Assembly (NCBI RefSeq): GCF_036370855.1
Contig: NC_088102.1
Coordinates: 41,453,835 to 41,517,834 of the forward strand
DNA length: 64,000 nt
Origin: Dromaius novaehollandiae
Lineage: Eukaryota > Chordata > Aves > Casuariiformes > Dromaiidae
Direction of reading: 5' to 3'
In this document: positions 2,053-39,460 of the stretch, in pieces
How the letters are laid out: each line of letters begins with the position of its first letter
Numbering within the stretch: the stretch's first letter is position 1
Notes under the pieces: generated by a model
Told to the model about the DNA's origin: nothing
Seen by the model: only the letters and a program-made list of their open reading frames with translations
Databases searched by the model: none
Made by a program: the position numbers and the translations under genes

Positions 2053-3013
2053 CCTTTTTTCTCCCAGTAGGATGTGCCAGGATGGATTTCTCTCTAACTT
2101 CATGCATTCACTACTGCCGTACTAAGCAATGAGCACCATACGGCAGTTTGCTCCAAGGGGTTTCTTAGTCCAGGCCTGTTTTGAACTTCTGGATTTAAAA
2201 ATCCATGAAGATGGATTTTCATCTTACACAGATGATGTTGACTTTCTGCTGCTGAGTGTCCTGCCAGTTATTTTGCACCTGACCTTTTCAGGAGGGACAG
2301 AGCAATCTCCACAGGAAAAGGAAGACTGCTGAGACTCTGCCCAATACCTTTAACTACGGGTACTGCAAAGGAGGACAATGCTGAGCATTCCCTCATGTCT
2401 TTCCACTCATTTCTGAGCCACAAGCACAGATACAGGGAGCTTGGCATGGGACACACCTCTGCCAACATCTCCCAGGAGGAGTCAGGGAGCCTGTGGAGAC
2501 AGCTCTACCTTTGTGGCTCCCTGAGGAGTGCAACGTCCAGGTCAGGCTAAGGCTGACTGAGTGTCAGTTTTTCAACTCTTGCACAAATTATTCCTGGAAT
2601 GGCAGAGATTTAATTTTTCTCTGAGGACACTTAACCCTTACAGGGCCCTGCTGTCCATACTCATATTAACAACATTAAGAGAGAGTGGGAGTAAGTCTCT
2701 TCTAACATGTCAGGGCCTTTACTCCTCTCCCTGCAGCACTGAGCACGAAAGGATACATGAGCATGGTGGCCAGGAACTACACACCACTTGATAAGCCAAG
2801 GTGAGGGCTCCAGTTGCTTAAAAATTTCAGTTCCCATGTTGGCTGGGAAAATGCAACACTTTTCTCCTGTTTCTCCTAGGAGAAATGATGTTGTCGGAAG
2901 AAGATCCAGACATTTCCTAACCTCGGTAAAGAGGAGTCAGTGAAAGTCCCTGTCTCTCCTTCCTTCCCACTCCCCACCAGCATAACTGTCATTCCCAATT
3001 GGCACAGCCGTGA

Positions 3014-3326
3014 CGCTGCCAGAGCTGGACGGAGGCTGGCAGAGGTGTGACCCGTCTTACCCACACCTTGGGGCACCAGTGTGGAGGAAAATGCAGCAAG
3101 AGGACACGAAGCAAGGCCAGGCCTGTGCTGTCCTGCCTTCCTCCCACCTTGTCTGGGTTCAGACTTTGCTCCCACTCCCACCCCAGGCTGAGCCTGATGC
3201 TCCGTCTTGCCCTGCCGGGCTTGCAGCAGCTGCTGCGTAGCCTCGCTGCTGGCTGGCAGCAGCCCCCTGTGCTGCCTATGCTGTTCCCACTTCTGCGCCC
3301 ACCACCACGGGACCTGGCCAGCCCTC
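3014..3326. repeat. Segment R1, copy 1 (paired with 9435-9748)
   Basis: About 313 bp matching 9435-9748 at roughly 90 percent identity in the same orientation. Both copies lie upstream of an ACOT exon 1 (about 0.98 kb before copy A, 1.5 kb before copy B). The pair therefore looks like part of the segmental duplication that gave copy A its present first exon. It does not read as a coding exon. Confidence 0.85.
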
Positions 3327-3995
3327 AGCACAGCATAAGCTCCTCAGTGATGATGTCCTGCTGCGTTCAGGATCCCGTCACAGGACTGGGCTCTCCAGGA
3401 GCATCAGTCCAGGAGGCAGCCTGAGGAAGCTGCTAAAGCACTCCCAGACTGGGGTGCCAATTCCCTGAGGGCAGTAAAGGGATCTCCTTTTCCATAGGGA
3501 GCCTGCAACTTGGCTGAGTTTGGGAGAGGAAAGGCAGCAACTGTGAGATAAGCCTGGGGATGGGGAGGAGGGCTGCAGGTGCACCATTCTTGTAAGGAAA
3601 ATAACCAGCAGGCCTGAAGGGAGATTGTTTCTAAGACCCGGTCATGTGTTTGCACTTGCCTTTGGGAAGTTTGCCACAGCTTATCTGACGGGGTGACGAG
3701 ATACAGCCTGTGCAGCCGTGGGCCACCAGGACTTGGGCAGAGCTGCTGCCCTTCGGAGATGCTCCTGCGATACCAAAGGATTTGCTGTGCTTAGCCTGCC
3801 CTGCTGCAATCTCTGACGGGGCTGCAGCTATGGCTACGAGCTGCCAGGCAGCCTCTGACGTCTCCCTGGCACAGCGTGGGCCCCCTTATCACCTGTCCAC
3901 GAGTCCCTTCCCCTCATGTGTGTGTGGGAAGCAGCATTTGTAGGAGAAGCCCCAGCTTGAGTGCAGCCGCTGGGAAGGCAAGTGGTGGTGGGGCC

Positions 3996-6900
3996 ATGTG
4001 GCGGGTCGCTGCCCACCTCCTGCGCCGCATGGGTGCCCGGTGCTGGCAGAGGCAGCTCTCCCGGCCCGGCCCCGGCTCCCTGCGCTGCAGCCCCGTGCGG
4101 ACCCCCGGGGCGGCAGCTGCCCGCTGCCTGTCCTCCATGGCCCCCGCCGTCCGCTTCTTGCCCGCCGCCCGCAGCCTCTTTGACGAGCCGGTGGCCATCA
4201 CGGTGCAGGGCCTCAGCCCGCGGCAGCAGGTCACGCTGCGGACATCCTTGCAGGACGAGACAGGCGAGCTCTTCGAGGCCTGCGCCCGGTACCAGGCGGA
4301 GGACAACGGGGAGCTGGACCTGGCCCGCTGCCCCGCGCTGCCAGGGGGCAGTTTCTCCGGCCTGGAGCCCATGGGGCTGCTCTGGGCCCTGCAGCCCCAG
4401 AAGCCCTTCTGGTATTTCATGAAGCAGGACATGCAGACGCCGCTGCGCCTGCTCCTGGAGGTGTTTGAGGGTCAAGAGCCTCCACCCGGGCAGCTCCTGG
4501 CCCAGGCCCAGCACGAGCGGGTGTTCCTGCGGGATGGGGTGCAGAGAGTCCCGGTGCGAGAGGGGAGGATCCGAGCGACGCTTTTCCTGCCTCCTGGTGA
4601 GTAGTGGCCATGGCCCTGCTGCTTTTTCTGGAAGTAGCATGTTTTGTCAGTGCAAGCTCCAGCTCTTTCCTGACCTCCATCAAAAGAAGTCTGTGAATTT
4701 GCCTGCCCTTTCCTCCCTCCCTCTTGCTTCACCAACCAGCATGACCGCTATTCCCAATCTATCTGGCTGTACAGGTCCCAGGGCAGGGCCACAGAAGTAA
4801 CTGGCAGAGAAGTAACTCTTAATGCCCAGAGCTTGAGGTTAAAAACATGGAGAAATACACAGCAAGAGAAAATGCATGCGCCTGGAGGGCCTCTGAGGCC
4901 AAGCAGCTAGAGAGAGGGTGGTGGAGACCTCTCAGCCCTCTGTGCCAGGCCTGCCATGCAGCCCTGAGCCTGGCCCAAAGTCCAGAGCCATCCCCATGTG
5001 AAAAACTAAGTAGTTCTCATCACTGGGAGGGTTTGGGAGATCTTCCCTCTTACCCTGACACAGCAATAGTTCATATGTCAACCACAGTTCGCTATGTTCA
5101 GAACCATATGTTGGGGTATATGGTCCACGAACATTGGTCTGTGCAAAGGAGGAGGTGGAGGGGCATTTTCAGAACATTTGCAGGGAAAACAACTTTCCAG
5201 CAGGAAAAGACAAACATTGCGTTGCTCCTGGAAAGGATTTCTACTCTGTGCTGTGGTGTAAGACTTGCCCAAGACCCCTCCAAGCTGCAGTATGTGCTGG
5301 GCAGCTCAACAGACACTTCCTTGCCAGGGTGCAGAGATGGCTGTTTTCACGTGCTCGGGATCCCACTTGGCCAGGGCTCCTCCCCTGCCTCACCTCTACC
5401 CCTGCCTGCTGACCAGGAGATGAAAGAAGCCACTTGCACACACTTACACACGTTTTGTCTCCAAACTTTCCTGCTCACCCTGACTTGAGCTGATTACAGT
5501 AAGTCAAATGCTGGCTCATTTCCTCCATGTCCCCAGACCTGCTTCCTTTGCATGATGTGAGTTTTAAAATGTTAGGCCCTTACCAGAGCTGCTGGCACTT
5601 TGAAGGGCTTCCCAGGCATGCAGAAGAAGGAGTTTACTCTCATCCAGCCACCACAACCAGTCTTCAGCTTAGCAAGACTATAAGCTTGAGCTGTAGTCAG
5701 TGTTTCTCTTATGCAGCTGTAGATGTGTTTCACTCTGCTCTAATTGTCTTGCACTGAGATGTCCCACTAACGATTTTCCATTCCTGGGAGTGCTCTCTGC
5801 ACAGTCATCCCTACACTTTCTGATTCAGAGGATGTTGGGGTTGGACACCACTCAGCAATTCACCTAAGGTCATAGAAAGGTGGAGAGCCCCAAGGAAAGT
5901 ACTTCTGCTATCATACTGTCCCAACTCCCTTGAATACCCCCAGAGCCTGATTCAGCGGTGTGTCCTTTTCTGTGCCTCTTCAGCGTAAGACCACACAGCC
6001 CTCCTGCACTCAACCAATCCACAGCCCACAGTCAACTGCACTCCTGGCCTCCAGGGCACACAGCCATGCTGTGAATGATCACGGTCCTTGGAGAGGCAGT
6101 GGAGCTGCTGTCGCCTGTGTGCACAGGCAGCTACCCCCTTCTCACAGCAGCAGAAGGAAGAGCACAGCACTCCTTCGGATGGCTGCGCTCTCCGCAGCCC
6201 AACCCGGAGACAGCGAGCAGAACTGTGCACTCTCCCTCCTCCTCAACTCCTGGCAGCAAGTTCCCATCTACCACCTGCAGCCTATTTGAGAAGGTGCAGG
6301 CCTCCACTTTCCAGGGCCAGAGCCCATGGCAGGAGGGCACACACCGAGGGCAATCCTGAAGGGTGGGAGGGATGACCTTTCCCAGGCTGGCAGCTCTCCT
6401 GAAGCCAAGAGGAGCTGGGCCTCACCCACTTCCCAATGTGGCCGGGGCACCTTCTCTGGCCTGGAGACCGTGAAGCTCCTCTGGGCCCTGCAGCCACCAA
6501 ACCCTTCAGGCTGCAGGACTGCAACATGAAGAGCCCTTTCCCTCTGAGCCTGAGGTCTTTGGGGCCCATGATTTCCTCCTCCCCTGGCACCGAGAGCACA
6601 GCACATGAACTGGGCTTTCTGCAGGATCAGGGAAAGAGGATCTTGGGGCAAGAAGGGAAGATCTGGGCAATGCTCTTCCAATCACCCCCAGAGCCACCAG
6701 TGCTGTTCTATGCAGAATTTGATATCAATCACAGTCAGAGATGTCATTGCTGAAGACATGAAGTGCTGGCTGGGGCAATCCCACCTATCATTCTTCCTTA
6801 GGTCCCAAATGTTCAACAGCTACAATACAATCACAAACACATATAGGTTGCTATTTTAACAGTACTGCATCTATTAAGCCACGCTACCTTGAAGATCTTA

Positions 6901-8319
6901 AAGGTGCCAGGCTAAGTGGTCTTTGTCAGCTGCTTATGGGAAGAGGAGAACCTGGGACAAGTCACCTTCACCAAATTGTCTATCAGTTGGCCCTAAACAC
7001 AATGCTGAAATACTGCCAGTTCCCAGCGCATAAAGATTTGCATCTTACCCAGCGGGTGTTTTTGCTGATCCTTTCTTCATCTGCAACACACCCTGGCGTA
7101 TTTTCAGCTGCTGACATAGCACAGCTGAGCAACTGATCACGTCTCTTCCCCCAGAAATGCTCTTCTACAGTTCCTGTTGTGTATCTGGTTTGATGCATTC
7201 TAAACTGGGGAAACATTAAGAGGACTCATTGCAGGCAATACTGCTCTTGGTCTTGTCTGCTCCAGGAGAAGCACCTTTTCCAGGAGTCATTGACATACAT
7301 GGACTTGGAGGAGGTCTTTTTGAACATAGAGCCAGCCTCCTGGCCAACCACGGCTTTGCCACATTGGCCCTGGCATATTACCGGTATGAGGATCTGCCCC
7401 AGGACCCATCTAAACTCCACCTGGAATATTTTGAAGAGGCGGTGAACTATATGCTGCGGCACCCACAGGTAGGAGCACCCTGGCTGTCCTCTGCGCTCCA
7501 AGGAGCGGCCTCTTCTCCAAAATGCCCCTCACTTTATCTCTGTTATTCCCTATTATCCCAGCGAGCAGTTTGTCTGTGGGAAGTGTCTACAACTCATCCA
7601 GCAGAAAAATGATCCTTGCCATCCTCTCCTTTACAGTGTCGTGCAAACGCTCAGCATTATACAGTGTCCCCTCCAGTAATATTTAGCTGTCATGCTTTCC
7701 AGCTCAGTAATGATGGGGATTTCCTCCTCTTCACCAGGTAAAGGGACCAAGGCTTGGCTTGCTCGGATACTCCAAAGGAGGAGAACTGTGTCTCGCCATG
7801 GCCGCCTTCCTGAAGAATATCGCAGCCGTTGCTTCCATCAATGGTTCAGTGGCCGTTACAGTTATTCCTCTCTGTTACAAGGATAAAATCATCCCCACTC
7901 TGCCCTTTGATGAAAAGCGTGTCAAGGTCAATCAATACAATATTCTTGATTATTCTGACATCCTTAATGACCCCTTCCAAGTCCCTGGCCACCAAAGCCT
8001 GATCCCACTGGAGAAAGTCGAGGCAAATTTACTGTTCATCACTGGACAAGATGATCATATTGTTAAGAGCAAATATCATGCTACTGAAACCTGTAAACGT
8101 TTGCAGGCTCAAGGGAAGGAAAATTTTCAGATTCTCTCCTACCCTGGAACAGGGCACTGCTTTGACCCTCCCTTTTTCCCTTTGTACCCCATAGGAAAGC
8201 ATCCCGTTTTTCACAAGTGGGCAGTCCTGGGTGGGGAGCTCAAGGCTTATTCTAAAGCACAGGTTCATGCTTGGCCGAAGATACAGGCTTTTTTCAACAA
8301 ATATTTAAATGACAAGTAA
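3996..8319 (+). CDS. ACOT copy A: acyl-CoA thioesterase, ACOT1/2/4 type
   Basis: Predicted 461-aa enzyme hydrolysing fatty acyl-CoA to free acid and CoA. The coding exons are 3996-4596, 7266-7468 and 7738-8319, with GT/AG borders and phases 1 and 0, as in the family. Residues about 60-185 match the acyl-CoA thioesterase/BAAT N-terminal domain, with [14 protein letters not shown]. Residues about 250-461 match the BAAT C-terminal alpha/beta hydrolase. The triad by spacing is Ser280 (in GYSKGG), Asp374 (GQDDH) and His408 (GTGH). The start was chosen because it begins the MWR sequence shared with copies B and C. The first 47 residues are Arg-rich with no acids, like a mitochondrial presequence, and Met48 is a possible inner start. 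The tail is NDK, not a peroxisomal signal. Exon 1 is nearly identical to copy B's while exons 2-3 are not. A decayed second exon 1 lies in intron 1. Without transcripts, use of the 3996 exon with exons 2-3 is inferred. Confidence 0.85.
4597..7265 (+). other. ACOT copy A intron 1
   Basis: The intron opens with GTGAGTAG and ends with CTCCAG. Its first bases match copy B for only about nine nucleotides beyond the exon, so the similarity stops at the splice site. It contains the decayed exon 1 at about 6230-6705. A 213-codon open frame at 4847-5488 resembles no family I know. Confidence 0.75.
6230..6705 (+). pseudogene. Decayed ACOT exon 1 inside copy A intron 1
   Basis: Pieces of translation follow the ACOT first exon in order and at the right spacing. 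CSLFEKV...QGQSPWQE matches RSLFDEP...[25 protein letters not shown] matches [27 protein letters not shown] matches [10 protein letters not shown]. The distance from the first to the last match (about 425 bp) equals that in intact exon 1 of copy B. The pieces lie in different frames because of small insertions and deletions. The donor is gone: where copy B has CTCCTG|GTGAGT this copy has a run of C then AGAG. It sits about 560 bp before exon 2 of copy A, so it is probably copy A's original first exon. Confidence 0.82.
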
Positions 8320-9434
8320 CGTGCAAGAAACACACAGCTTTGAACAGCCTGATCTAACAGGTCCTTTATATTTATGATGTTAAACCCTGTTCACAGCTGC
8401 ACCCATACAACCCCAATATCTTTCATGCCTTTGCACACCCCTGACTCAGAGAAGAACTGGGTTTGCATTTTCTTTTTTCCCCCAAACTTTGTTTGCTCAA
8501 GTGCAAAGGAAAGGCATGGCAAATACATTTGCATCAGCCCTTGATCAAACAGATTATATGCAAAATATTCAGTTATGATGCTCACCTGTTTTATGATCTT
8601 TTAATACCTGTCTGTACTTTGTGAAACTCTGTGCTGCCTACATGCATATGCTACCTTCAGCACATATCTTTTGAAAACTTCCTCACCAATTAACTTTCAG
8701 GACTGGCATTGCCACCCACACATTTACGCTAATGAGAAGTGGAATCACGTCTGATTGCTGAGATGGAGGAACTGTCCATTTGGGCATGTCAGGACTAGGA
8801 TGCCAGGGTCTCTGCTTAAGAGCGCTCAGGTTGCAGGAAATTGGGTCTTCCCTCTGGAAGGGCTGTTGGTTTTCTGTGCCTTGTTTCTGTCTCCCTTTCA
8901 GAAAGAAGTGCTCTGGCTGGTGGATACTTCTGACCCTGAGACTTTTTGTTCCTGCCAGAAGCCGTTCTGCCAAATTTAGTCACTGTGATCTTCTCCCACA
9001 CAACATGGTACCTTTTCTGCTCTGCGACTTGGGGCAAGAATTTTAAATGAAGAGAGAATAGATTTGAATTCCATGGAGTAGTCTGTTGTGCTCTGGTTAG
9101 AAGTGGGTACCTTTGCATCTGGATTGCTCTCCTTCCCCTCAGCTTGGGTGCTGGGCTGCTCAGGTGGGGAGAAGAGACCAGAGGAGGCTCTGACATGGGG
9201 CCTTGGCACCTTCACTCCTCCTCTGCTCTTGGGGCATCAAGGGTGCAGTGGAAGGGATGTTGTTTTAGACTTCAGGTCCTTTCCCCTTGGACCTCTTCCA
9301 GGGTATAACTGAGCTTGTGACTGAATCCAGCTCTGCGTCCTGAGGAGTGCCATTCTCAGTAGCAGGAGAAGTTGCCACGCATTGAGGGCTGGACATCAGA
9401 CAACACACTCAAATGCCAGATGACCAAGCCATGT
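8320..9434. other. Intergenic and 3' flank of ACOT copy A
   Basis: AT-rich sequence after the copy A stop, presumably its 3'UTR at first. I see no clear AATAAA within about 400 nt, so the transcript end cannot be placed. From about 8785 it holds segment R2, copy 1. Confidence 0.5.
8785..8980. repeat. Segment R2, copy 1 (paired with 10250-10450)
   Basis: About 195 bp resembling 10250-10450 at roughly 70 percent. Shared landmarks include CCCTCTGGAAGGGCTGTT near the middle and GAAGCCGTTCTGCCA / GGAGCCGTTCTGCCA at the end. It could be a local duplication or two copies of an unrecognised dispersed repeat. Confidence 0.65.
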
Positions 9435-9748
9435 AGCTGCCAGAGCTGGACAGAAGCTGGCAGAGGTGTGACCCGTCTTGCCCACACCTCGGGGCACCAG
9501 TGTGGAGGAAAATGCAGCAAGAGAACATGAAGCAGGGCCAGGCCTGTGCTGTCCTGCCTTCCTCCCACCTCGGCTGGGTTCAGACTTTGCTCCCACTCCC
9601 ACCCCTGGGCCAAGCCTCATGCTTCATCTCGCCCTGCTGGGATCACAGCAGCTGCTTCATAGCCTCGCTGCTGGCTGGCAGCAGCCCCCTGTGCTGCCTA
9701 TGCTGTTCCCACTTCTGCGCCCGCCACCACGGGCCCTGGCCAGCCCTC
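9435..9748. repeat. Segment R1, copy 2 (paired with 3014-3326)
   Basis: About 314 bp, roughly 90 percent identical to 3014-3326 in direct orientation, upstream of ACOT copy B. Its position relative to exon 1 parallels that of copy 1, which points to one duplicated block rather than independent insertions. Confidence 0.85.
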
Positions 9749-10249
9749 GCCATGCCTGCGGGGCCGGCCGAGGCCAAGGCCAAGGCCAGGGCTTGCTCCT
9801 GCCCTCACCGTGCTGGGGGTGACAGCCCTGTGCAGACGGAGGCCCCTGCTGTGCACAGGGACTGCACAGCCCCTGTCCTGGGGCCCGTGCTCCTCGCCCG
9901 CCCGGCCCACCCCAGCCTGCAGCTGCCAGCGAGCTCAGCGCAGGCCTGGCAGCATGACTCCCTCTGCCCAGAGCACGCTCCCTCCTCCAGGGAGGGCTTG
10001 TGGCCCCAATGGTGGGGCCATGCTGGTGCAAAGGCCACGAAAGCCTCCCTGCCCCCCTCCACAGCAGCTGCCATGGGGACCCCGAGCTGGACAAAGTCAG
10101 GGTGGCATCTCCCACCTGCCCTCTCCAGTGCATTTGACATGTATTTTTAAACATGTCTCCCACAGGCTCAGGGATTTCACCACATTTACCCTGAATGCCT
10201 CATCACAAGTGGAAACATTTCTGCCTGCTGAGCTGCAGGAAGCCTATTG

Positions 10250-10450
10250 CATGGTGTGCCAGAGCCAGGATGCCGGGATTTGAGTTTAAGAGTGTGCCGG
10301 CTGCTGGGAATCAGCTCATCCCTCTGGAAGGGCTGTTCGTTTGCCTTCTACCCATGTTTCTACCTTCCCTTCAGAAGGATGTTCCTTGGCCAGGGGGTTT
10401 CACTCTGCGCCCTGAGGTGTTTCAGTCATGCAAGGAGCCGTTCTGCCATG
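10250..10450. repeat. Segment R2, copy 2 (paired with 8785-8980)
   Basis: Diverged direct repeat of 8785-8980 that lies between R1 and the copy B promoter. No third copy was seen near copy A. Confidence 0.65.
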
Positions 10451-10689
10451 CCCCCCCCCGTCTCACCAGCCACCTTACAGTTTCGCTGTAGGTTATTGCC
10501 TTGGGCCTTCACTGGCCTGGTGCAAAGCCACAGTGCAAGGAGGAAGCATCACGGGGAGAGTGGTCACAAGCTGGCTCCCTTCCCTTTCTGTGTCCCGATC
10601 GTGACTTCTGACCGCGATTCTGCTCTGCGGCTGGTGAATACCTCTGGCCGCTCGGTTTTATAAATGAGATGACACTGAGGATTGCGGTC

Positions 10690-11560
10690 TGCTCTCACCC
10701 AGGGCTGCAGCCCACCCGGGGGGAGACACCGGGGGGACACAGCCGGCGGAAGCAGCGCTTGCTGCGGAAGAGCCCGCTCCGGCTCAGGCAGCCTCTCGGA
10801 CAGAGACGCCCGCCCGCGGGCAGCCAGCGCGGAGCACCAGCCCCGCCCGGCCCGGCGGAAGGGGCCGGGCGGCGCGGGGAGGCGGCAGCGGGCAGTCCCG
10901 CCCCGGCGGGGCGGTGCCAGTGTCGGCGCCATGTGGCGGGTCGCTGACCGCCTCCTGCGCCGCGCGGGTGCCCGGTGCTGGCAGAGGCAGCTCTCCCGGC
11001 CCGGCCCCGGCTCCCTGCGCTGCAGCCCCGTGCGGACCCCCGGGGCGGCAGCTGCCCGCTGCCTGTCCTCCATGGCCCCCGCCGTCCGCTTCTTGCCCGC
11101 CGCCCGCAGCCTCTTTGACGAGCCGGTGGCCATCACGGTGCAGGGCCTCAGCCCGCGGCAGCAGGTCACGCTGCGGACATCCTTGCAGGACGAGACAGGC
11201 GAGCTCTTCGAGGCCTGCGCCCGGTACCAGGCGGAGGACAACGGGGAGCTGGACCTGGCCCGCTGCCCCGCGCTGCCAGGGGGCAGTTTCTCCGGCCTGG
11301 AGCCCATGGGGCTGCTCTGGGCCCTGCAGCCCCAGAAGCCCTTCAGGCGGCTGGTGAAGCGGGACGTGCAGACGCCGCTGCGCCTGCTCCTGGAGGTGTT
11401 TGAGGGCCACGGTTCTCCCCCCGGGCAGCTCCTGGCCCAGGCCCAGCACGAGCGGGTGTTCCTGCGGGACGGGGTGCAGAGAGTCCCGGTGCGAGAGGGG
11501 AGGATCCGAGCGACGCTTTTCCTGCCTCCTGGTGAGTAGCGGTTGTCGCGCCGGGCTCCT
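10690..11560 (+). promoter_or_regulatory. CpG island promoter of ACOT copy B
   Basis: Very GC- and CpG-rich sequence that starts about 240 bp before the ATG and covers exon 1. It contains GC-box-like runs (CCCGCCCCGGCGGGGCGG at about 10895-10912) and no obvious TATA box near the start. The equivalent stretch before copy A is clearly less CpG-rich. Confidence 0.7.
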
Positions 11561-14500
11561 TCCTTCCCCGCGGGCGCCACCTCCTGCCATGGCCCCACCG
11601 CGGGGGTCCAGCCTGGGCCCGCGTTCCCGGGGTGCTCGGTGCCGGTTGGTCAGGCTGTGCCCCTTGTTACAACTCCGCCACTGCAGAGGGGAGCTCGGCC
11701 CCGTCCTCTCTGCATGCACCTTTCACGGGGCTGGAAGCTCTCCGGGGGGCCGCCCGCTCCCCAGTCCCTGAGCCTTGCCAGAGCCCTCCCCGGTTTCCGA
11801 GCTTCCCGCTGAGCCGGGAGCCGGCACTGGGTGCTGACCTCATCAATTACTCCTTCGGTCTGCTGGCCACCTTCCTCCACGTGTCGCCCAGCATCTGCGT
11901 TTGCCTCATAGGCGTATGTTCAACCTGGTGTCCAGTGTAAGGCCAAGGTCCTTGTGTTCAGCCTGGTGTCCAGCGTGAGGCCCAAGTCCTTTCCAGCAGG
12001 GCTGCTACTCGGGCAGTTGCTTCCCAGGGCTGGGGGCTATTTTGCCCCCAATCAATAACTTCACACTTCTCTATGTTGAACTCTGTGACATATTTGTTGG
12101 CCTAGTCCTAAGTTCATCAAGGTTTCTCTGGACTGAAGCTCTGCCATTCTTTGTATCTCTCAGTGCTCTCTTTAACTGAGTGTCATCTGCAAATTTGCTG
12201 AGGATGCCCCTTGTGCCACCATCCAGGCTGTTGATAAAAGTGTTAAGCAGTACATACCTCAGTTAACAACCCCAGAGGTAATTGCTTGCTCCTGACTGCC
12301 AGCTGGACATCAAACCATTGGTCACCCTTTGAGTTTTCAAATGGGAGTAGTGTGGGAGATGGTGTCAGATGTCTTTGAGTCACCTTCCCCCTTCTTCACT
12401 GTTTTCCAGGGGAGTCAGCTAGTAATTCCCTGAATAAGTTGAAGTTTGCTCTACTAGAGTCCTAACTCTCCTGCTTCCCTTTCCAGCCTTCCCCAGATTG
12501 AGAACTTGGTCATTTTGTAGTTGCTGCAGCCACGTTTGCCCCCCATTCTTCACCATGTGTGAACAGAAGGTCAAGTAGGGCATTGTACAGGCTTGCCCTT
12601 ACAGTATTTGTGCCAGAAAATTATCACTGGCAAGGTCTGTGAAGTTCCCAGATTGCCTGGCAAAAGCTTTGTTACCTCCTAGCAGTGATCCAGACTTCTG
12701 CTAGTTGTTTTTTGGAAGCATCATCTCCTGCCTGCTCTTGGTGTTGGGGGACTGTTACAGACCACCCCACATATCCCACCCTCCCCAGGCACATCTCTGG
12801 TTTCATGCCGGAGGTCTGTGCAGTCAAGGAGCTCCTCTGCATAGCACGTTTCTCCCTATCCTCCTTTGCCTGTCCCTGTACTTCTCCAGCAGCACCTCCG
12901 TAAACAGCTTATCCTTGTCCGTGACAGTGCTGCAATCACACCTACCATCCCAGACAGCCTCCGTGCTCCTGGTTGCTGTGTACTGTGGCTCCATGTGAAT
13001 TTCCAGTTCTTGTTTGTTGCCCAAACATCATCAACATCAATGTGGTTGTAACATTTTTGACCCAAACATGTTGCCCCGTTGTCTGTGCATTAGTGTGCAG
13101 ACACCTGAGAAAAGCCTCACCCTCCTTTGGAGCAGGAATGGGAAAGTCCCCTTCATGGCCTCCTCCTTTCCATGCTTCCTCACTAGTTTACAGCTCTTCC
13201 TCTCAGTTCTAGACTTCAGTCTCTGCCCCCTGATGAACCTCATTTATAGCTTCCCTCACCAGGTTACCAAGCCTGGTTGAAAATAGTTTCTTCCTGCTTA
13301 GTGCCAGAATAAACTGGCCATAGTACATTCACACTGAAGCTGAGAAGCTGGAACCATCCGAAGATGAGATTTTTGGGTCAGTCTTCTGAGGGATGCGCTG
13401 GGGAGAAACCTACTGGGTATTTTTGAAGGGAGCATAATACATTTTCATGACAATATAGATAGCTAGATGTGACTGCCAAGGGATCCCTTCCCTTCAAGCC
13501 ATATATTCCCTGATGCTAACTAAAACATTAGCTGGCTTGCTATTTTGTGCTATCTTGTTTAATCTTGAAGAAATTGAGCCATTTATTGAAAATTGACACA
13601 GAACTTAGGACCCTTAGTTCCAGTTCTGCTACTGCTGTTTGTTTTTCTCTTTTTAAAAGAGTCACATTCCCAGACCTGTGAATTTGAGGTATAAATGAAA
13701 AATTATGAATTAATGTGTTGTTATGTGGTGTCTTGCAGGAAATGGTCCTTTTCCAGGAATAATTGATATATATGGAACAGGAGGGGGGCTCCCTGAATAC
13801 AGGGCATGCCTGCTGGCCAACTACGGCTTCGCTGTGCTGGCTCTGGCTTACTACAGCTATGAAGATCTCCCCAAAGATATGAAGGAATTCCACCTGGAAT
13901 ATTTTGAAGAAGCCATAAACTATATGTTGCAACACAGACAGGTTGGCTTGTTCATTGACATCCTCCCACTAGAAGGAACTCTCATTAATCAGGTCCTGTC
14001 AGACTGCAGATGGGGCAGAGCCACTGTACTTAAAATAGCATCTCTGTTCAACCTGCCTTAAATAATTTGTTTCGTATCTCTTACTCCCATTATAATAGTT
14101 CTCTGGCAGTTATTCCAATTCTTTGAATTGGATTCCAATATTTGAACTGGCTGGGTAATACAGTAATGCCTGGGTCATATATTGGTAATTTCTGCTCCGT
14201 TCAACCCTGTGTCGTCACTAGGGAACCAGTTACTTCAGGCTTACCAAACTTCTAATGGGATTTTGGGGTTTATGCTTTGTAAAATGCCCTTGACAACTAA
14301 ATGCCCTTCTCAGCCATGTAACACATGATAAGCCTCTGTGATCCATGGCTCGAGGAAGTACACCAGTACACATTTCTCGCTGTATATTGGATAGGCTGCT
14401 ATAGTCAGTCCAAATGTTGGTATTTGGGGAATGTGGTTTCTAGTAGCTGCTGTGAGCTCAGGGAGCTTCTAAGTCTGCACCTTTTGTAAGAGAGCCCTGC

Positions 14501-16289
14501 TGTGTTCTGTATCAGCTTCCAGATAGCTGTTCATGACAATAACTAGGGCTGTGCAAGGAGAGCTCTACCTTTAACTAAATGGCATCCCCAGCCTCAGAAA
14601 GATGATTACTTTAAGGCCTTGGTTGCCTTTCAGTCACCCTTGCCCTAACTTCTGGTGCTACCCTTCTGTCCAAAAACTCCCCCAAATTGCTTTTTCTACC
14701 CTCTTTTCTTCTTCCTGCAAACAGCACCGCAGCCTCCCATTAACACTTCCACTAATACTCCCCACTATGTTCTTTATATGTTGCAAAGATCCAGCCATAT
14801 TTTTTAATTTCCCTCTTTCCGTGCTTCAGCTTACGCTGATGATAAGGTATCAAAGGTGTGAAATTTTGATGCTATCTTGGAGCCTCTTATCCTGAGGCTG
14901 TTTGGATAATGGAGCAATTGTGGTATTAGCTAACCTTCTTCAAGTGTCCGTAGAGGATTTCAGCCACCTGTAAAATCATTGAGCATTCCTACTCTAGTTA
15001 ATTTGCCCATGGAAAAGAAAAAGAAGCTAACCTAGACTATACTAACTCTGTAGGGTCTTACAGTTGGCTTAAAAGAGGTTTTTAATTGGTTAATTTTTTA
15101 AGATACATTTTAATGAGTAAGCTATCTCAAAATACTTATTTTTCAGTGTGAGTGAGACACCAAGCGTAATGAAGAAACGAGAGAGCAGCTGATAGAGAGT
15201 CCTGCCACCCTGTGTTAGGGTGCCACCTCCTAATAGGAAAATCAACAACAGTGTTTGAATATAAGAAATACCTTAGGATGTCTAAATGACAGTGTCATAG
15301 TCATTACTGATTTTGAACATTTTGCACTGAAAGAAAGCATTTGAAGAAGAGGCCTCCCCTCTTCCTTCCCTCCACTTTCCTGAGCTGCCTTATGAGCAAA
15401 ACGAATCTGGAGCTACCTGTCTGCATGGCTTTTTTGCAGACAGAGCTGTGCCCTCTGCATATGCTTCAGCACTGAGCCTGGTAGTTTTGTTAGGATGTTG
15501 CTGCAGTCTCAGCAGGGCTTATGATCATGAACCCAGCCCAGAGCTGTGCCAGTGTCCCCTTGATGCAGGCCCTGCACTTAGGATGTTAGGGGCCTACACC
15601 TGCGGTCAGGACAGAGGCTGCTGTTAAGACAGCAATGCTTTAAATGGTTCATTGCTTGTGGTTTCTCTTTCACTCCCCTCCAGGTTAAAGGTCCAGGAAT
15701 TGGGTTGCTTGGGATCTCCAAAGGGGGCGACCTGTGTGTCTCCATGGCCTCCTTCCTAAAGGGCATCGCTGCCACCGCCCTCATCAATGGCTCGGTGGCA
15801 AACGTGGGCGCCGTGCTGCGCTACAAGGATGTCACCATTCCACCCCTCGGCATCAACGCAAGCCGTATCAAGGTCAACAAGTCCGGGGTTGCGAATATCA
15901 TCAACGTCCTGAACAACCCGTTAGAAGGGCCAGACCGCCAGAGCTTCATCCCCTTGGAGAAGGCCGAGTGTCCCTTCTTGTTCATTGTTGGCCAGGATGA
16001 TCACAACTGGAGGAGCGAATTCTTTGCAGTTGAGGGGAGCAAACGTTTGCAAGCTCATGGGAAGGAAAAGCCTGAGATAATCTGTTACCCTGGGGCAGGG
16101 CACTATATTGAACCCCCCTTTTTCCCAATGTGTGCAGCCTCGATACACATGCTAGTCGGCAAGCTGGTGGTGTGGGGAGGGGAGCCCAAGGCGCACTGTG
16201 AGGCACAGGTGGATGCTTGGCGGCAGATCCAAGCCTTTTTCCACAAACACCTCGCTGGCACGCTCTCTGGGACATCCAGTAAGCTGTGA
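10931..16289 (+). CDS. ACOT copy B: acyl-CoA thioesterase with peroxisomal SKL tail
   Basis: Predicted 469-aa thioesterase, the most conventional member of the cluster. The coding exons are 10931-11531, 13739-13941 and 15684-16289; splice phases match copies A and C. The N-terminal thioesterase/BAAT domain (about 60-185) has [11 protein letters not shown], as remembered for mammalian ACOT2. The C-terminal hydrolase has GISKGG (Ser280), GQDDH (Asp374) and GAGH (His408), followed by YIEPP and WGGEPKAH. The last residues are SSKL, a classical PTS1. The first 47 residues are Arg/Ser-rich and nearly acid-free (one Asp), suiting a mitochondrial presequence. Met48 (11072) would give a 422-aa form without it, so dual targeting is plausible. 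The first ATG has G at -3 but T at +4, which could permit leaky scanning; this is inference. A CpG island covers the start. Confidence 0.95.
11890..12780 (-). mobile_element. CR1 LINE fragment (ORF2 region), decayed
   Basis: The plus strand contains tgtcatctgcaaatttgctg at about 12181-12200, the complement of the reverse transcriptase FADDT block of avian CR1. It is followed by the familiar downstream phrases on the pair of ccatccaggctgttgataaa and cagttaacaaccccagagg. The part beyond about 12420 fits the upstream part of ORF2, with less certainty. Several stops and indels break the frame, so this is an old non-autonomous relic. Borders are approximate. Confidence 0.75.
13042..13066. repeat. 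25-nt word shared with 16616-16640
   Basis: Exact direct repeat, beginning gtggttgtaacatttttgac, in copy B intron 1. The second copy is about 330 nt after the copy B stop codon. Similarity drops off within a few bases on each side. Confidence 0.8.
13942..15683 (+). other. ACOT copy B intron 2
   Basis: Starts GTTGGC and ends CCTCCAG before the exon carrying the catalytic Ser. I see no gene or recognisable repeat inside; the open frame at 14602-14895 has no family features. Confidence 0.75.
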
Positions 16290-16860
16290 TGTGCATTAGG
16301 TTATTTTTCAGACGAAGGGGCTGGTGTTTCACGTTTGTTTTGTTCAATGACTCCGAATGAGAACAAAGAATAACTACAAATAAGTCAGGTTTCTCTGGAG
16401 GCGAGTGTGCCCCCTGGCACTGCCCCCTGTGCAGCTGCTTCTCCCAGAGCCGGGCTGTGGGGCCGGCACCACAGCCCCTCAGCCGGGTGCGAAGGGGGCA
16501 GCAAGGCCATGGTGGCGGCGGCGCGTCGTCATGTCCCTGCCACCCCGTGCCGCGAGGGGCTCCCAGCTTAATTTCTGCCCCTGTCCCCTTGCCCGCTCCT
16601 TGAGGACCAGCTGGGGTGGTTGTAACATTTTTGACCCAAATATTTGTTTGAAAGAGAAAGCACTGGATGTCACTAGTGAGGTGAATTTGCCCTGTTGACT
16701 GGGAAAAAAAAAGTACAAATTTGTGCCTTACTAATCCGACCGGAGCGGGTGTAGTTGATCAGCCTGGCTTGTGTTTTATGTGAATTACGTTAGGCGCGTT
16801 TATGCATTATGTGTGCACTGTTTGGGGTTTTGTTTCTTTTTAACGGATTAAAATGAGACG
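16290..16860. other. Region between ACOT copies B and C
   Basis: Begins with the presumed copy B 3'UTR. A possible poly(A) signal ATTAAA occurs at about 16846. The second copy of the 25-nt word is at 16616-16640. The next CpG island begins at about 16870. Confidence 0.5.
16616..16640. repeat. 25-nt word shared with 13042-13066
   Basis: Second exact copy of the word in copy B intron 1, here in the 3' flank or 3'UTR of the same gene. Confidence 0.8.
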
Positions 16861-16869
16861 TTAACCGCT

Positions 16870-17720
16870 ACGAGCCCCTGGTGTCTCCGAGCCGCGCCGG
16901 CGGCGGTTGGGGCGGGAGGGAGGGCGGTTGGGGGACGGAGCGGGGGCGGTGGCTCTGCTGTCGATTGAGGCTGCCTGGGGGGGGGGGCAGGTGACCGCGC
17001 CGCCCGTTGTGGCCGTTGGGGAGGAGCGGGGCCGCGCTCGCCGCCTCGTCGCCATGTGGAGAGCCGCTGCCGCCGCCGCCGCCCTGGCGCGAGCCCTGTG
17101 CCGTGCCGCGCCGCCGCCGCCGCCCCCGCGGCGGGGGGCCGTGAGCCTGGCGGTGTCGCCCGCCGCCGGCCTGGCGGACGAGCGCGTGGAGACGCGCGTG
17201 GCGGGGCTGGGCCCGGGGCAGCCGGTGACGCTGAGGGCGGTGGCGGCGGACGAGCGCGGCTGCCTCTTCCAGTCGTGCGCGCACTACCGCGCCGACGGCC
17301 GCGGCGAGCTGCACCTGGGCACAGACGCCTCGCACGGCGGCGACTACACCGGCGTGGAGCCCATGGGGCTCTTCTGGAGCCTCGCCCCCGCCGGCATGGA
17401 GCGGCCCTACCAGCGGCTGCTGCCCCGCAGCACCGGCACCCCCATGCGGGTGGAGATGCTGGTGCACCAGGGCCACAGCCGGCCCGACGCCCTGCCCGGC
17501 CCGGTGATGGCCAAGGCCGAGGTGGAGCGGTGGTTCACGGCGCCCGGCGTGCGGCGGATCCGGCTCAAGGAGGGAGGCGTGCGGGGTTCCCTCTTCCTGC
17601 CGCCCGGTGAGTGCCCCGGCCCGGCCCGGCGGCGCCCGCCGCCTCCCCGCGCAACGCACAGCGGCGTTGGGGTTTTTTCCTGCCGGTTGGTACCGGAGGC
17701 CCGCGGAGAGGTGCCTTGTC
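16870..17720 (+). promoter_or_regulatory. CpG island promoter of ACOT copy C
   Basis: Dense CpG sequence from about 180 bp before the ATG through exon 1, with GC-box-like GGGGCGGGAGGGAGGGCGG at 16910-16928. No TATA box is evident. Confidence 0.7.
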
Positions 17721-20700
17721 GCGGGCGGCTGTCGCTGGACAGGCAGCAGCCGACTGAGAACAGGGGTTGTTGAATTTACCATGTCGCTGCTCCCTGTCTT
17801 GGGTTTTCTGACAGTTGTCCTGGGCTGCTAGAATAACTTGTATTCAGAGAAGCTGATGCATTTTCCTCATAGGAGGTTTTTACCCTGAGTGGGGCTGACC
17901 GCAAAAGGCATTTTGCCTCCCTGTGAAACACATGCCAATAAACAGCAGTGGAAGGAGGTTATAGAAAACATAAGTACACCACCACCTCTCTGTTACACTA
18001 GACCCAAAGCTAAGCGATAGTTTTGCTGCTGTGGTTGCTCAGTGGTTTTATAAATACAAAATAGATTTCTGGGGAAGTTCTGCCTGTGGCACCTGTGGGA
18101 TGGCTGTGCTCTATGAGGTGTGATGGCCTGATGGGCAGCTACTGTTGCTGTAGAATGAAACCTTGCACTGAATATTCAAGCCATGATTTAAACTCCTAAT
18201 TGTTAACCTGCTGGAACTGTCCTTATATTGTCTCTTACTTATAATGACTTGGTTCAGCAAAACATGGAAGCACCACTAGTTTTTATGGATCTAAGTCTTT
18301 CCAGTGAATGGTTTCCAAACCAATAGTGTTTTTATCCATTTAGATACAGATCCAAAGTCCACTGAAGAAAAAAACAACTGAGATTGAACTTTGTATTTTG
18401 GATGAAAAGTTTGGTCCACATTCTGGATTCTCCAACACTGAGACCCTGTTGTTTTGATGAATCCTGCCTTAGAGAGTGAGCTGAGTTTCTGCAGAGCTCA
18501 GTGGGAATCCAGCGATCTGCAACCTGGAGCTGCATTTGTCCGTTTAAAAAGTCCAGTGTTGTAATAGTAGTGTGGAAAAGTCTGGAATCATTGCTTAAAT
18601 GACACTAAAATCCTTCTCAGTGGAGTATCCAGTTACAACATTACCACTATGCTTTGTGTGCTTCAGGGAGGGAAAAATGTTAATATTGTTAAGGTAGGAA
18701 TCTCAGAGGTGAACTGCTCTCACTCACAGTGAGATGACATGAGTGGCTTTAATTATGTTTGCAATATAAAAGAGGTTTCTCATTTCAAACGTAAGAGTTA
18801 CAGTTTTTAGATTTTTTTTTAAGCAGTAGTAAAGTTGTCTAGCCCCGTTTAGCTTGTTTCTTAGTGTGCTGTGCAGAAACTGCACACGTGGACATGAGTA
18901 GGCACTCAGGAAGGCTGTCCAGGATCCTTGTAGAAGTTAAAGGTTGTCTTCATGAGAGATAAAAACACATTTTTGTTTGACTGTATTCTGATTATATGTT
19001 TTTGCTAGAAAACTTTCTATGTAGGCATGATAAATAATTAAATCCTTCCTTTTCTAGCCATCTAGGCTGACTGTTTTTAATTAAACATTTCTCTTGATCA
19101 GGGCATCATGATAAGAAATGTATCCAGACTGATTTTCTTCCCAGCAGAATATTAAACTTCTGGAAAAAAATTAGAACTGAAAGAAAAAGGAAAACATTAG
19201 GAAGTCAGAAAAGCACTGAAATATATATATATATATATTTTAAGTTATGAGGTTTCCACCATTTACTGTGTCTTGTCCAAAACTTTGTTTTCTCAAGTAC
19301 CTTGAAATGCCAGAGGTCTTTTCTTTAATTGTTGCACCTAGGTAACTTAGTGTTAATGCACTTCTGCACAAGTAGATCTCTTTTCTGCTAGATAGTTGTA
19401 GTGATCTGGATCTGAATGAGACAATGGTGACATCTGGTGGCCAGTCAAAAAAAGGAAAAAAAATTGGGGTCTTTATGGTTATAAGGATAGTATCCCCAAC
19501 CGCTTAGCTCAAAGTCTGCTACCATGGCAGACAGTTATATCACAACAAGACTTTGGCTGCAAAAGCATGTCCACTTAAAGTTGTGGGTTTGAATGTTTCT
19601 GCAGTTCAGTGGGACTGTTCATTTACATGTATATGTGTGTGTATATTTATATATCAGCCACAGACACCCCCACACCCACAGGGTTTCTTTACACCTGCAA
19701 TAGCAGTTCTGCTGCCAGCTGTTGCAGTGCTGATGCTGAGACAGAGCTAGTAAATCTAGCTAATTTCACCCAGGTGACTTCTTGCCGTGTTTTTCACAAT
19801 GCACTTTTTCCCACAGTTTGTGTAAGTCTTGCAGAATTATATCTGTGGGCTCAATGCAATTGCCTCTTTAGTAATGTGCTTATATTTTGCTAATTAAAGT
19901 TGTTTGTGGGAAAACATCTGATTTAGAGTATGATTGTTTCCAGGATGGGAAGTTAAGACTATTGAAAAACACATTTAAAACAGTTAAAAAAAAAAAAAAA
20001 AAAAGTTAACTGTTTACATATTTTACAGGAAGGTAAGGAGCTATTCCTGTTTTGAAATAGCCAAAGTAGGTTACAGCGCTAACTCTGTATTCTCCACTGT
20101 GGAAGTAGAAAAGTAATGAGTAGTGATAGAAAATGTGTTATGCCTGCTATATTTGCCTGTTCACTCTTCATTAGATACTTTGTAGTGTCCTATTTGATAA
20201 CTTTATTGTCCTCTCTACCTCTTTATTTAATATAGGGGATGGCCCCTTTCCAGGAGTGATTGACATGTACGGTGATGAAGGGGGTTTAGTTGAATTTAGA
20301 TCCAGCCTCCTGGCCACCCGTGGTTTTGCTGCTCTTTCTCTGCCTTACTTTGACTTTGAAGATCTGCCTAAGGTCATGAAAGAATTCAAACTCGAGTACT
20401 TCGAGGAGGCAGCTAGATTTCTACAGCGTCACCCGAAGGTGAGTGTAATGCGGGGTTCCTCTGAACAAGGAACTGGAGAGGATTCAGCAGCCATGCCCCA
20501 GTAGTATCAGTGATTTCTTTGGAGTGTCAGTTTCTGTTGAGCAGATTTTTGCCCAGTAATGGAAAAAGCATAGGTTTTACACAGGTGACTATGCTTATGA
20601 CTGCAGAGAGTGAATTTTTTTCCAGCACAAGCAGATATAAAACTGGTCATTAAATAAATTTATGCTGGAAACTAGAAGATTCCCGATTATTAGAACAGTG

Positions 20701-21893
20701 AAGTGCTGGAACAGCCTCCAAACAGGAGCAATGGTGATAAAGATGTACTACTTTAAAAATGGAAAGTAATTAGCTTATGAAAGGATGGTAGAAAACTGCT
20801 TAATAATCAGTAAGGGAATGGATTTGATGGCTTAAGAAGTTACTTTCAGTTTTACTTTCCAGACTGGAGAAGGACAAGACTAAATAATACTCACCTGATT
20901 CTCACATGTCATTTGTAAGATTACTTTACTTGCCTGAGATGTATATAGCAATTGACTATGTATATAGGAATTGGATTTCCTGCTACCTGTTCTGGAAAAA
21001 AGAGAAAGCATTTGGATCAAAATATGCAGTTGGGACTAGGTGAGGTCCAAGTGATTGTATCTTCTGTGCCTAGCGTAAATACTGTGTCTGTGTTATTTTA
21101 GCAGATTTAACATCTGTTGTTGTCCCTGAAAAATAAGACACTTAGAGGAAGGAGCCTGGCTCCAGGCTGTAGCGTTCCAACTGGTCACGTCAATGATTAA
21201 CATAACCTTTTTTGTATAACATAACTCTAGAGGCATTTAATGGCTAATCCTATTATAATGCATGCTTTCTGTATTCCTTTCTTCTTCTGTTCCCCTCTCC
21301 CACCGCCTTATCTGAAGGTGAAGGGGCCAGGAGTTGGAGTGATTGGGACTGGGAAAGGGGCAGAATTAGCACTCTCCATGATCACCTTCCTGCCAGAAGT
21401 AGTGGCTGCTGTTTGTATCTCCGGCTGTAGTTCGAACACAGTTGCAGACCTCCATTATGGTGAGATGACCCTGCCTGGGCTGCGTTTTGATATGAATAAG
21501 GTCAGTGTTTCTGACACTGGTGTATTTGACACTTTTGAAGCTCTGGATGACCCAATGAATCCTGCTAATTCCCCTTGCACAATCCCCATTGAAAAAGCCG
21601 AAGGTCACTTTCTCTTAGTGGTAGGAGAAGATGATCGTATGTGGAAGAGCTCCTTATATGCTGATCTGGCAATTGGGCGTCTGCGCCAGCATGGGAAAGA
21701 AAACTTTGAGCTCTTGAGTTATCCAGGAGCAGGCCACCGAATCGATCCTCCTTCTACTCCGTTTTGTCAGGTAGCTGTGGATCGTGTTCTGGGGGTACCT
21801 GTCCTGGGGGGCGGAGAGAGCAAAGCACATGCCCATGCACAGGAACACTCCTGGGGAAAGATTCAGGAGTTTCTGCGCTTGCATTTGGGCTGA
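17054..21893 (+). CDS. ACOT copy C: ACOT/BAAT family, catalytic Ser replaced by Gly
   Basis: Predicted 443-aa protein of the thioesterase/BAAT family. The coding exons are 17054-17606, 20236-20438 and 21318-21893; phases match copies A and B. The N-terminal domain contains [13 protein letters not shown], and the middle exon begins [13 protein letters not shown]. The nucleophile elbow reads [13 protein letters not shown] where copy B has [13 protein letters not shown], so the Ser position is Gly264. Asp358 (GEDDR) and His392 (GAGH) are kept with the normal 94 and 34 residue spacing. The reading frame is intact and splice sites are good, so this is not an ordinary pseudogene. C-terminal stretches ([22 protein letters not shown]) recall BAAT more than ACOT2, but BAAT has Cys as nucleophile. 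The N-terminus is an Arg/Ala-rich stretch with a proline run. The tail is HLG, with no PTS1. A CpG island covers the start. An inactive or re-purposed enzyme is inferred. Confidence 0.93.
17607..20235 (+). other. ACOT copy C intron 1
   Basis: Opens GTGAGTGC and ends AATATAG. It contains an (AT)9 run at 19221-19238 and a 19-nt A run at 19986-20004. No coding sequence is recognised. Confidence 0.75.
20439..21317 (+). other. ACOT copy C intron 2
   Basis: Opens GTGAGTGT and ends CTGAAG. The part at about 20690-20870 (gtgctggaacagcctcc and following) resembles the region of CR1 3' ends that reads ggaacaggctgccc, so a very old CR1 fragment is possible but weakly supported. Confidence 0.6.
20690..20870 (+). 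mobile_element. Possible ancient CR1 LINE fragment
   Basis: Only a short phrase (gtgctggaacagcctcc) and the loose arrangement downstream support this. Too diverged for a firm call by eye; it could be another ancient LINE such as L3. Confidence 0.3.
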
Positions 21894-24880
21894 ACACTTC
21901 AGTACCTGAAAGCTGCTGTGAGTTGCAGAGGACTGAGCTTGAGCCACCAAAATGACTAGAGAATTGGAGGGACTGACTGAGACAAGTTCTAAAATATGAA
22001 ATAACCGAATGACAGCTCAGCTATGTGCGTAAATCCAAACAGAAGGGGATTTGTTTGGATTAGTCTGAGTTATTGTAACTAGGCATCCTGAGGAGAAGTG
22101 AAAAAATGATAATAAATAGGCTGCATTTTAGTACAAATTTGCCAGCCTGAATTGGTCTTAGTATCAAGAAATAAGTGTCTGAAGAGAGCGGTAGGTGCTT
22201 TCTTGCCTGCAGTATTTATGGCTTAAAGAACTTAGCAAGCCAGTCTGCACCATCAGAAATGGCATACTGGTTCCCACATGGGGAAATGATGGCAACCTAT
22301 GGATGATAAACTTTGACATCAAAATGAAAAATGATTCTGACTTTGGCTCTGAATCAAGCTACTTCAGTCCAGAAGTCTCCAATTTACAGCCATATATATT
22401 TTGAAAATGTCTTCTATCTCTATGAAGCCAGGGTTATCTATTTGTAATGAGTCTTTTGTAGCTTCACCTTAGTGGTCTTCTGCCAACATAGTCAATGCTT
22501 CTTTCCAACAAAAAACTACCTATAGAGTGAGAAAACAGAGTACTTTTACTGTCATCTAGGGAGAATGGCAGTGCCAGCACTACCTTGTACTAGTGATGTC
22601 ATCATCAGGGACTCATCTGTTTCTATGGTGTCTTGGACAGGCAGTTGACACTCAGGGTATTAAAGTTCTGCTGGGTAGTGCAGTTAAATGCAGTTATGTG
22701 AAACTCTTACTTCTCTCTTCATTGCTTTTTTTAAAATGGTAACACCTGTCACTAAATTTGGGATTAGTTACCTGTGGAACTCTTTGGTAATGATGTCAGC
22801 AGATGCTGACAGCTGTTTCTGGGGAGGAAGCTGAGTTGAGAAACAGAAAACCTGGCCAACAGAAGATGGCAGGACTGACTAAAAAGCTAAAATATGGCAA
22901 TGATTAACTTAACCTTAACTTTTTTTTTAATATTATGATTTTATCTTTCCCATTGCTACTGGGGATTGTTTTTCATCCTAATTAATTTTTAGTTGGTGCC
23001 TTATTTCTCCCACCATTTGGGTAGAAAGAAACAACTTCTTTCAAAATTATTTGATTTCTTAAGAGGGTCCTGCTGAAATGATGCCAGTGCTGGAGGCCTG
23101 TTTAACAAGGCCCTCTGTCGATACAATTCTCCTTCCAGGGTCTTTTTTTTTCCAGGCCATTTTGAGGGCTTTCCAGTAAGTTACAAACCCTTCATTTATG
23201 ATACTGAATTTTGGTTTGCTCTGAGAGATCTTTTCTCTCCAATTAACTGTCATTATGCTCTTGCTCAGGTCTCATTAGCTTTTTCTGCAACTCAATACTA
23301 CTCCTTATCATTTGTGTGCAAATCACGTGTTGTCCACACACACCATCACTTCCAATTGAACAGTTTAGCTATTCACTCCTTACAAGATAAGCTCTACCAT
23401 ACTCACTCCGCTCAAAACATCTTCACAGCTAGCCTCTCTAAACTCTTTGGCTGAAGAGGCCTTGCATGGTCATTTCTGGTGCTTGAATCTGCACTAAAAC
23501 TGGCTGCCTAGAAGTCCAGGATGGCAGCCTGCCATGAGGTGCATGTTGGTGTTGCCCGTGCTTCATACCCTGCCTTTTTGCCAAAGCCACCCCAGGTTGT
23601 AACCGTAGAAGAAAGCGTTGTCCAACGGTTTCCTTTTGCACTGTCTGCCCTCGTCATGTGGATCTCCAGCAGTCAGAGCTAACTGTGCCGTTGGCTTTAG
23701 TTGAACAGTGCCTCCTCTAACCCCATTTTGTTACCCTCCTGGTATAGATACCCATGTTTCTCCACTGCAGTCCTCCACAGAATATCCAATGCCATGCAAG
23801 ATCAGAAGCTGGAGTTCCAGGAAGCAAATGTTGCGTTGTGATTAGAACAAAACCCAGGTAGCTTAAAAATCCCCAAATTTCTTTCTAAAGCACAAAGCTT
23901 TAAAGGAATTCTTACTAGCTATTAACAGGTATATACAAACAATTTAAAAGAGAAGTAATACCTCCTTTATTACAAGGCTGCACGTGAATTCAACGTTTTT
24001 TGTTTCTGAATAGTTCATTTGTCTGGAAAGCTGAACAATATCCCTTTTAAACAAGGGAAGAAAAACAGAAAGAACATAACTTTACTGTGGAAATACCTTT
24101 AGGAGCAGGGCAGGATACTCATGGCCAAAATTATTCACAAAATGGTCTCTAGAAAAGTGATCTGCTTTGGCACTAATGTTTTGTATATTTACAATGCTAC
24201 TTGGAGACCAAAGAGGCATCTTAGACACTCTGTAGGTAATATATTTCCTGAATGGGGAGTACCAGAAATATTTATAGCGTATGTTAAAATGAGTAACTGT
24301 GGCCTTAGCTAAAGCCGTATTATTTATACTGTTTCACATACTTTACATGGCAAAAGTCCCACAGCATTTCATCGAGAATACTGCTTGGATGGATGGCTTA
24401 GCTTTATTAGTTAAATTTGGGTCTATCTCATGATGGAGGCAAAATTAGGCTTGGGGTTCCAGAAACACTCCATGACTTACGGATGGCCTGTGCTGCAGTC
24501 TGAAAAAGCTACAGCTTGTCCGCGCCTTGCAGAGAGCAGCAGGCAAAGTTTGGGTGACTCCAACAGCACCAGGTTGTGTTATCCACTAAATGTTATCAGC
24601 CAAAAGCTGACACTTGGGCCAGCTGTAATTAGTTGACAGTGTTATGGATCATATCTTACTGCTGAAATGTATGGTTTGTGTTACAGGATCATTTTGTGCA
24701 GACACTATTTGTAATTTGCAATTCAACTTTTTTCACTGATTGACTTAAATAAAATGCATATAACGATGCTAGGATGCTGTGGCGTGTTTTATCATCATTA
24801 TTGCTGCAGACAGCATGCTGGGGGAAGGAGGTGTGAAGTTCTCTGTCCCTAACCCTCTCGCACAGCCGCTTGTACGGAAA
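21894..24880. other. 3' flank of ACOT copy C and intergenic region before DNAL1
   Basis: A canonical poly(A) signal AATAAA lies at 22111-22116, about 220 nt after the copy C stop. A perfect 9-bp inverted repeat (22032-22061) lies in this presumed 3'UTR. Beyond it, to the DNAL1 CpG island at about 24880, I see no gene on either strand. Confidence 0.6.
22111..22116 (+). terminator. Candidate poly(A) signal of ACOT copy C
   Basis: AATAAA about 220 nt downstream of the stop codon, the first canonical hexamer in this direction. Cleavage would be expected some 15-25 nt further on. Confidence 0.55.
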
Positions 24881-39208: not shown

Positions 39209-39258
39209 TAAAGCTTTCTTGTTGGGTATTTAATTATTTAAGTATCTCCAGAATGCCT

Positions 39259-39460
39259 CAGTACATAGAACTTTTATATACGTTTGTTTTGAAGAAAATC
39301 TTTGGGCAACTTTTAAAAGACTAGCTTATCTCCACAGTCTCTCACCTGAAGAATTGTTCAGTACATAGAACTTTTATATACATGTTTGTTTTGAAGAAAA
39401 TCTTTGGGCAACTTTTAAAAGACTAGCTTATCTCCACAGTCTCTCACCTGAAGAATTGTT
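39259..39460. repeat. Tandem duplication, about 100 bp, in DNAL1 3'UTR
   Basis: Unit 1 is 39259-39358 and unit 2 is 39359-39460. They start cagtacatagaacttttata and differ only by two extra bases in unit 2 (acg against acatg). The near-identity means a recent event. It begins 51 nt after the stop codon. Confidence 0.95.

Follow-up and report, generated by a model that had tools for sequence, protein, structure and literature searches.

A type-I acyl-CoA thioesterase/BAAT gene of Dromaius novaehollandiae that has lost its catalytic nucleophile

What becomes of an enzyme gene when the residue that would carry the reaction is gone and the rest of the gene is kept? The question is raised by a stretch of 64,000 nucleotides of the Dromaius novaehollandiae genome (GCF_036370855.1, contig NC_088102.1, hereafter C5), spanning C5:41453835-41517834, which we call the window. 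The window has three type-I acyl-CoA thioesterase/BAAT genes (A, B and C) on the + strand, each with three exons, and in gene C the nucleophile is lost while the reading frame and the Asp-His pair are intact. The parts of gene C are given below in window coordinates.

17054..17606, + strand: exon 1, encoding the N-terminal 41 residues and then PF04775 (acyl-CoA thioesterase/BAAT N-terminal domain)
20236..20438, + strand: exon 2, 203 bases
20274..20276, + strand: Asp198, which lies in the loop GDEGGL; placed by means of the gene model
21318..21893, + strand: exon 3, encoding most of PF08840 (BAAT_C, the catalytic-domain part) and including the stop codon
21351..21353, + strand: Gly264 codon GGG at the nucleophile position, which is Ser in the relatives examined
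21633..21635, + strand: Asp358, the catalytic acid of the family, retained; counted from the gene model
21735..21737, + strand: His392, the catalytic histidine of the family, retained; counted from the gene model
22111..22116, + strand: AATAAA, a possible poly(A) signal 218 bases beyond the stop codon

The three exons splice into a single open frame of 443 residues with no stop or frameshift, as the original prediction had it. The splice sites had also been called good; this holds for the intron ends, which are GT..AG, but the acceptor of exon 3 reads AAG, less usual than CAG, the commoner acceptor. The observed/expected CpG ratio is 0.96 across 16850-17620, the region of exon 1. The protein carries PF04775 (E 1.8e-36) followed by PF08840 (E 2.2e-68), both exceeding the curated cut-off, and with this domain order and a predicted ACOT2-like alpha/beta-hydrolase fold it is a member of the type-I ACOT/BAAT family. 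Human ACOT2 and ACOT4 were its only relatives of solved structure in a sequence search (E up to 0.1), and the predicted fold of exon 3 resembles human ACOT2 among the matches listed.

At the nucleophile elbow the replacement of Ser by Gly264 was confirmed, and the residue is neither Ser nor Cys. Gene C thus lacks the Ser in G-x-S-x-G of an active ACOT as well as the Cys (or Ser) nucleophile of a BAAT. The spacing of the other two triad residues is that of the family, as had been claimed: 94 residues from nucleophile position to Asp and 34 from Asp to His, equal in A, B and C. A profile search of the whole genome (1.468 Gb, 271 contigs) found PF08840 at five places and PF04775 at five, all on C5 and belonging to genes A to E, and the elbow is Ser in four of these five genes (A, B, D and E) and Gly in C alone. 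Both A and B have a TCC codon at Ser280. The motif GISKGG, previously taken as that of the active members, is found in B, but the elbow is GYSKGG in A, GLSKGA in D, GVSKGA in E and GISLGA in human ACOT4; human ACOT2 has the Ser too.

Bacterial relatives gave the same picture. The alignment had 45 rows, seven of them fragments without the elbow column, and Ser was present in 38 of 38 loci with a profile-aligned elbow, a count that is biased since the column was chosen as the Ser-richest one. These loci represent 31 distinct genes, because seven repeat a gene; they are the best-scoring ones listed, many weaker ones being other hydrolases, and eight carry PF04775. In an alignment of 14 sequences, nine of them bacterial genes, Asp and His were invariant (14/14) and Ser was present in 13, the latter number adding little because the nine bacterial genes were located by text patterns containing Ser.

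Could the Gly simply be a fault of this one sequence? GGG differs at two or three bases from each of the Ser codons and from each of the two Cys codons, so that a single wrong base cannot yield Gly264. A private mutation, named beforehand as an observation that would undo the prediction, therefore has no one-base route from any Ser or Cys codon, and a private point mutation or sequencing error at codon 264 is ruled out. The codon distance also means that, barring a multi-base event, GGG arose from a codon that no longer encoded Ser or Cys. The finding rests on one assembly, and one could still think of a fault in the assembly or the base calling, of a rare allele, or of a Ser restored by RNA editing. 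Such an explanation needs two or three base changes within the codon from any Ser codon, and of the editing types considered, neither A-to-I nor C-to-U can produce Ser, because GGG has no A or C; we regard it as extremely improbable.

It might also be supposed that the nucleophile has been replaced by a different Ser, Thr or Cys of the protein, for example Thr263 or a residue of the ISGCSS stretch. Thr263 stands immediately before Gly264, and Cys and Ser residues follow strand 28-34 of the exon 3 model. But the model retains the strand at residues 6-11, residue 12 (= Gly264) and the helix at 13-24, so by analogy Gly264 would be the tip residue of the elbow, which makes a substitute very unlikely.

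If the loss is real, is gene C still under selection? Among the columns that are identical in the other four genes of the genome, C keeps 105/125 overall and 67/74 in the catalytic part. The same measure for the Ser-bearing paralogues (overall; catalytic) gave 105/114 and 67/74 for A, 105/109 and 67/71 for B, 105/124 and 67/81 for D, and 105/125 and 67/77 for E, the overall values of A and B being inflated because their first exons are near-identical. Of the 66 columns without variation in the seven other sequences (one bacterial), C kept 57, and of the triad just Ser264 belongs to the nine that changed. By these sequence comparisons, the catalytic part of gene C is constrained about as much as that of its Ser-bearing paralogues.

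With a purpose-written branch codon model (255 catalytic codons), omega was 0.09 on the C branch versus 0.226 elsewhere. Fixing the C branch at omega 1 cost 25.4 in twice the log-likelihood difference (2dlnL), while freeing C from the rest gained only 4.23. As foreground the other genes gave 0.46 (A), 0.37 (B), 0.13 (D) and 0.007 (E), which are noisy values of single branches. The selection estimate is that of the catalytic exon only, as the N-terminal codon fits did not converge (negative likelihood difference, inconsistent values for a single unrooted tree). Relaxed selection, which had likewise been named as a point that would count against the prediction, is thus rejected as an average over the whole branch. 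When B or E was left to decay without constraint in simulation, at 0.2, 0.4 or 0.8 substitutions/site, none of the 300 runs at each setting escaped a stop codon. The intact frame set against this simulation, the retention of invariant columns and the branch omega rule out a neutral pseudogene since duplication.

A recent loss is a different matter. Gene C may have lost its function lately and be drifting to a pseudogene, with the frame, Asp and His as leftovers; a branch-average omega is compatible with recent relaxation. Against this, unless several bases changed in one event, the codon underwent at least one more substitution once Ser or Cys had been lost, and the gene is free of stops and frameshifts, with its splice sites unbroken. 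We consider a recent loss unlikely.

How old is gene C? The original prediction called it a copy of ACOT, and this label is misleading. Over the catalytic part, E comes nearest to C with 53.6% identity, followed by D (47.5%), B (47.0%), human ACOT2 (46.6%) and human ACOT4 (46.2%), and B is 71.2% identical with human ACOT2. Tree tests (LG+G4, 8 sequences, 275 columns) strongly rejected a group of A, B and C excluding the human proteins (log-likelihood difference 68.7), so that C did not arise from A or B by a recent tandem duplication. A place within the wider group of A, B, ACOT2 and ACOT4 was narrowly rejected by the approximately unbiased (AU) test (0.047) but not by the Shimodaira-Hasegawa (SH) test (0.259), and pairing of C with D was rejected by AU (0.014) but not SH (0.204). 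A tree that pairs C with E does as well as the best one under LG+G4. Under another model the group of A, B and the human proteins had a support of 99, and C stood beside that group plus D. The A/B/ACOT2/ACOT4 group probably does not include gene C, and the identities together with the tree tests indicate that the C lineage most likely branched off before mammals and sauropsids parted and is not a fresh duplicate.

What, then, may the protein do? The reading that we favour, to which we give about half of the weight, is that gene C is an old, maintained type-I ACOT/BAAT member without nucleophile, whose product binds acyl-CoA without fast turnover. Enzymes of this family work by a covalent acyl-enzyme on the nucleophile, and with neither Ser nor Cys in place this intermediate should not be formable by the gene C protein. 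The acyl-CoA pocket would be retained, and the protein might serve as a buffer or a sensor, or regulate the active paralogues as their partner. The place of action would be the mitochondria: the first 41 residues have five Arg/Lys and no Asp/Glu, which is presequence-like and suggests mitochondrial import. A pseudoenzyme, a binding role and altered chemistry had all been offered in the original prediction; the loss of the nucleophile with intact frame and Asp-His is supported, but does not tell the first two from the third. A maintained gene C would allow a test of whether acyl-CoA-binding pseudoenzymes tune active family members.

Several points weigh against this reading. Omega averages the whole C branch, before and after the loss of Ser, and the branches are long, near-saturated and noisy, so that a late loss of function would stay hidden. 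The position of C next to the group of ACOT plus D has a support of only 39 in the catalytic part and 46 in the N-terminal part, and the best-fit trees under the other model leave C and E unpaired. Asp358 and His392 are retained, although a pure pseudoenzyme needs neither; the pair is what a pseudoenzyme explains least well, because the non-enzyme NDRG3 has lost its entire triad, according to the accessible part of PMC7022630.

For this reason the possibility that gene C is still an enzyme must be taken seriously, although we think it rather unlikely. His392-Asp358 would act as general base and activate water or an amine on the bound acyl-CoA, and no covalent acyl-enzyme would form. The Asp and His that are invariant in 14 sequences have been retained in C despite the loss of the nucleophile, and the constraint on the catalytic part would also fit. 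On the other side stands Asp198, present in C only among the 8 sequences aligned; it lies in the GDEGGL loop, which by analogy we take to be the probable oxyanion loop, and there it might repel the thioester oxyanion. No precedent within the ACOT/BAAT family was found in the literature searched: titles and abstract openings, with most subscription papers outside this scope, yielded no nucleophile-less ACOT or BAAT, and the ACOT passages of PMC8919083 and PMC3790746 had no bearing on a missing Ser. In the mammalian survey of Kirilenko et al. 2019 (PMC6934887), as far as its accessible part goes, all intact BAAT and BAATP1 genes had Cys or Ser as nucleophile. If direct chemistry were true, an alpha/beta hydrolase or acyltransferase that has evolved to work without a nucleophile would adjoin paralogues that use Ser. 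A maintained member minus the nucleophile alone would also allow a test of Asp and His acting alone.

Gene C has no second copy or retrocopy among the matches listed in the protein search of the genome; the matches, at least 15, were three exons each of genes A to E. A scan of genome contigs for relatives gave one, which was bacterial, and one scan of viral contigs gave none. The other family members are the following, D and E having been assembled exon by exon.

3996..8319 of the window, + strand: gene A, exons 3996-4596, 7266-7468 and 7738-8319; 461 residues; Ser280
10931..16289 of the window, + strand: gene B, exons 10931-11531, 13739-13941 and 15684-16289; 469 residues; Ser280; C-terminus SKL
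C5:42729522-42733609 (42.73 Mb): gene D; elbow GLSKGA; C-terminus SSL
C5:76972189-76973864 (76.97 Mb; coding exons): gene E; elbow GVSKGA; C-terminus CQL

Exon 2 has 203 bases in all five genes. Exon 1 of A is 96% identical to that of B and the stretch upstream 91% (window 3006-4596 versus 9427-11531), while exons 2 and 3 have identities of about 74% and 66%. From these identities, A seems to have acquired its exon 1 recently from B, by duplication or gene conversion. A decayed stretch in the first intron of A (6411-6679), with 68% identity to exon 1 of B (E 8e-18), is perhaps the former exon 1 of A, a remnant after the new one arrived. Gene B has a presequence-like N-terminus, an internal Met48 and the C-terminal SKL, which we take as targeting signals, and alternative starts could send its product to mitochondria or peroxisomes. 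Peptides that we take to match DNAL1 are encoded further downstream on the + strand, at 34.7-36.6 kb; the human ACOT cluster likewise adjoins DNAL1. A tandem pair of 102-base copies, 98% alike, is located at 39258-39460.

A second BAAT locus in sauropsids, flanked by ZP1, is described in the accessible part of Kirilenko et al. 2019 (PMC6934887). Zona-pellucida-domain matches near E (C5:76961356, E 5.5e-15; weaker at C5:76969278, E 6.8e-5) fit this locus at the level of the domain, and gene E is probably its BAAT. Its nucleophile is Ser, versus Cys in BAAT of platypus, alligator and turtle in the same source.

Compared with known systems, gene C differs from the human type-I acyl-CoA thioesterases ACOT2 (PDB 3hlk) and ACOT4 (PDB 3k2i) in having Gly where they have the Ser nucleophile. 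It is closest to the probable BAAT of the ZP1 locus, gene E, by its catalytic-part identity. A C-terminal peroxisomal signal is a BAAT feature, and the CQL of E is a tail like the type 1 peroxisomal targeting signal; gene C ends LHLG, without such a signal, and thus differs from E both in its nucleophile position (Gly against Ser) and in its C-terminus (HLG against CQL). That an alpha/beta-hydrolase fold can persist without a nucleophile is known from neuroligins and NDRG proteins (NDRG3: PMC7022630, in part), which share with gene C the fold without the catalytic Ser and have a non-enzymatic role. They are of other families, however, and NDRG3 has lost its triad entirely, whereas gene C has lost one residue of it.
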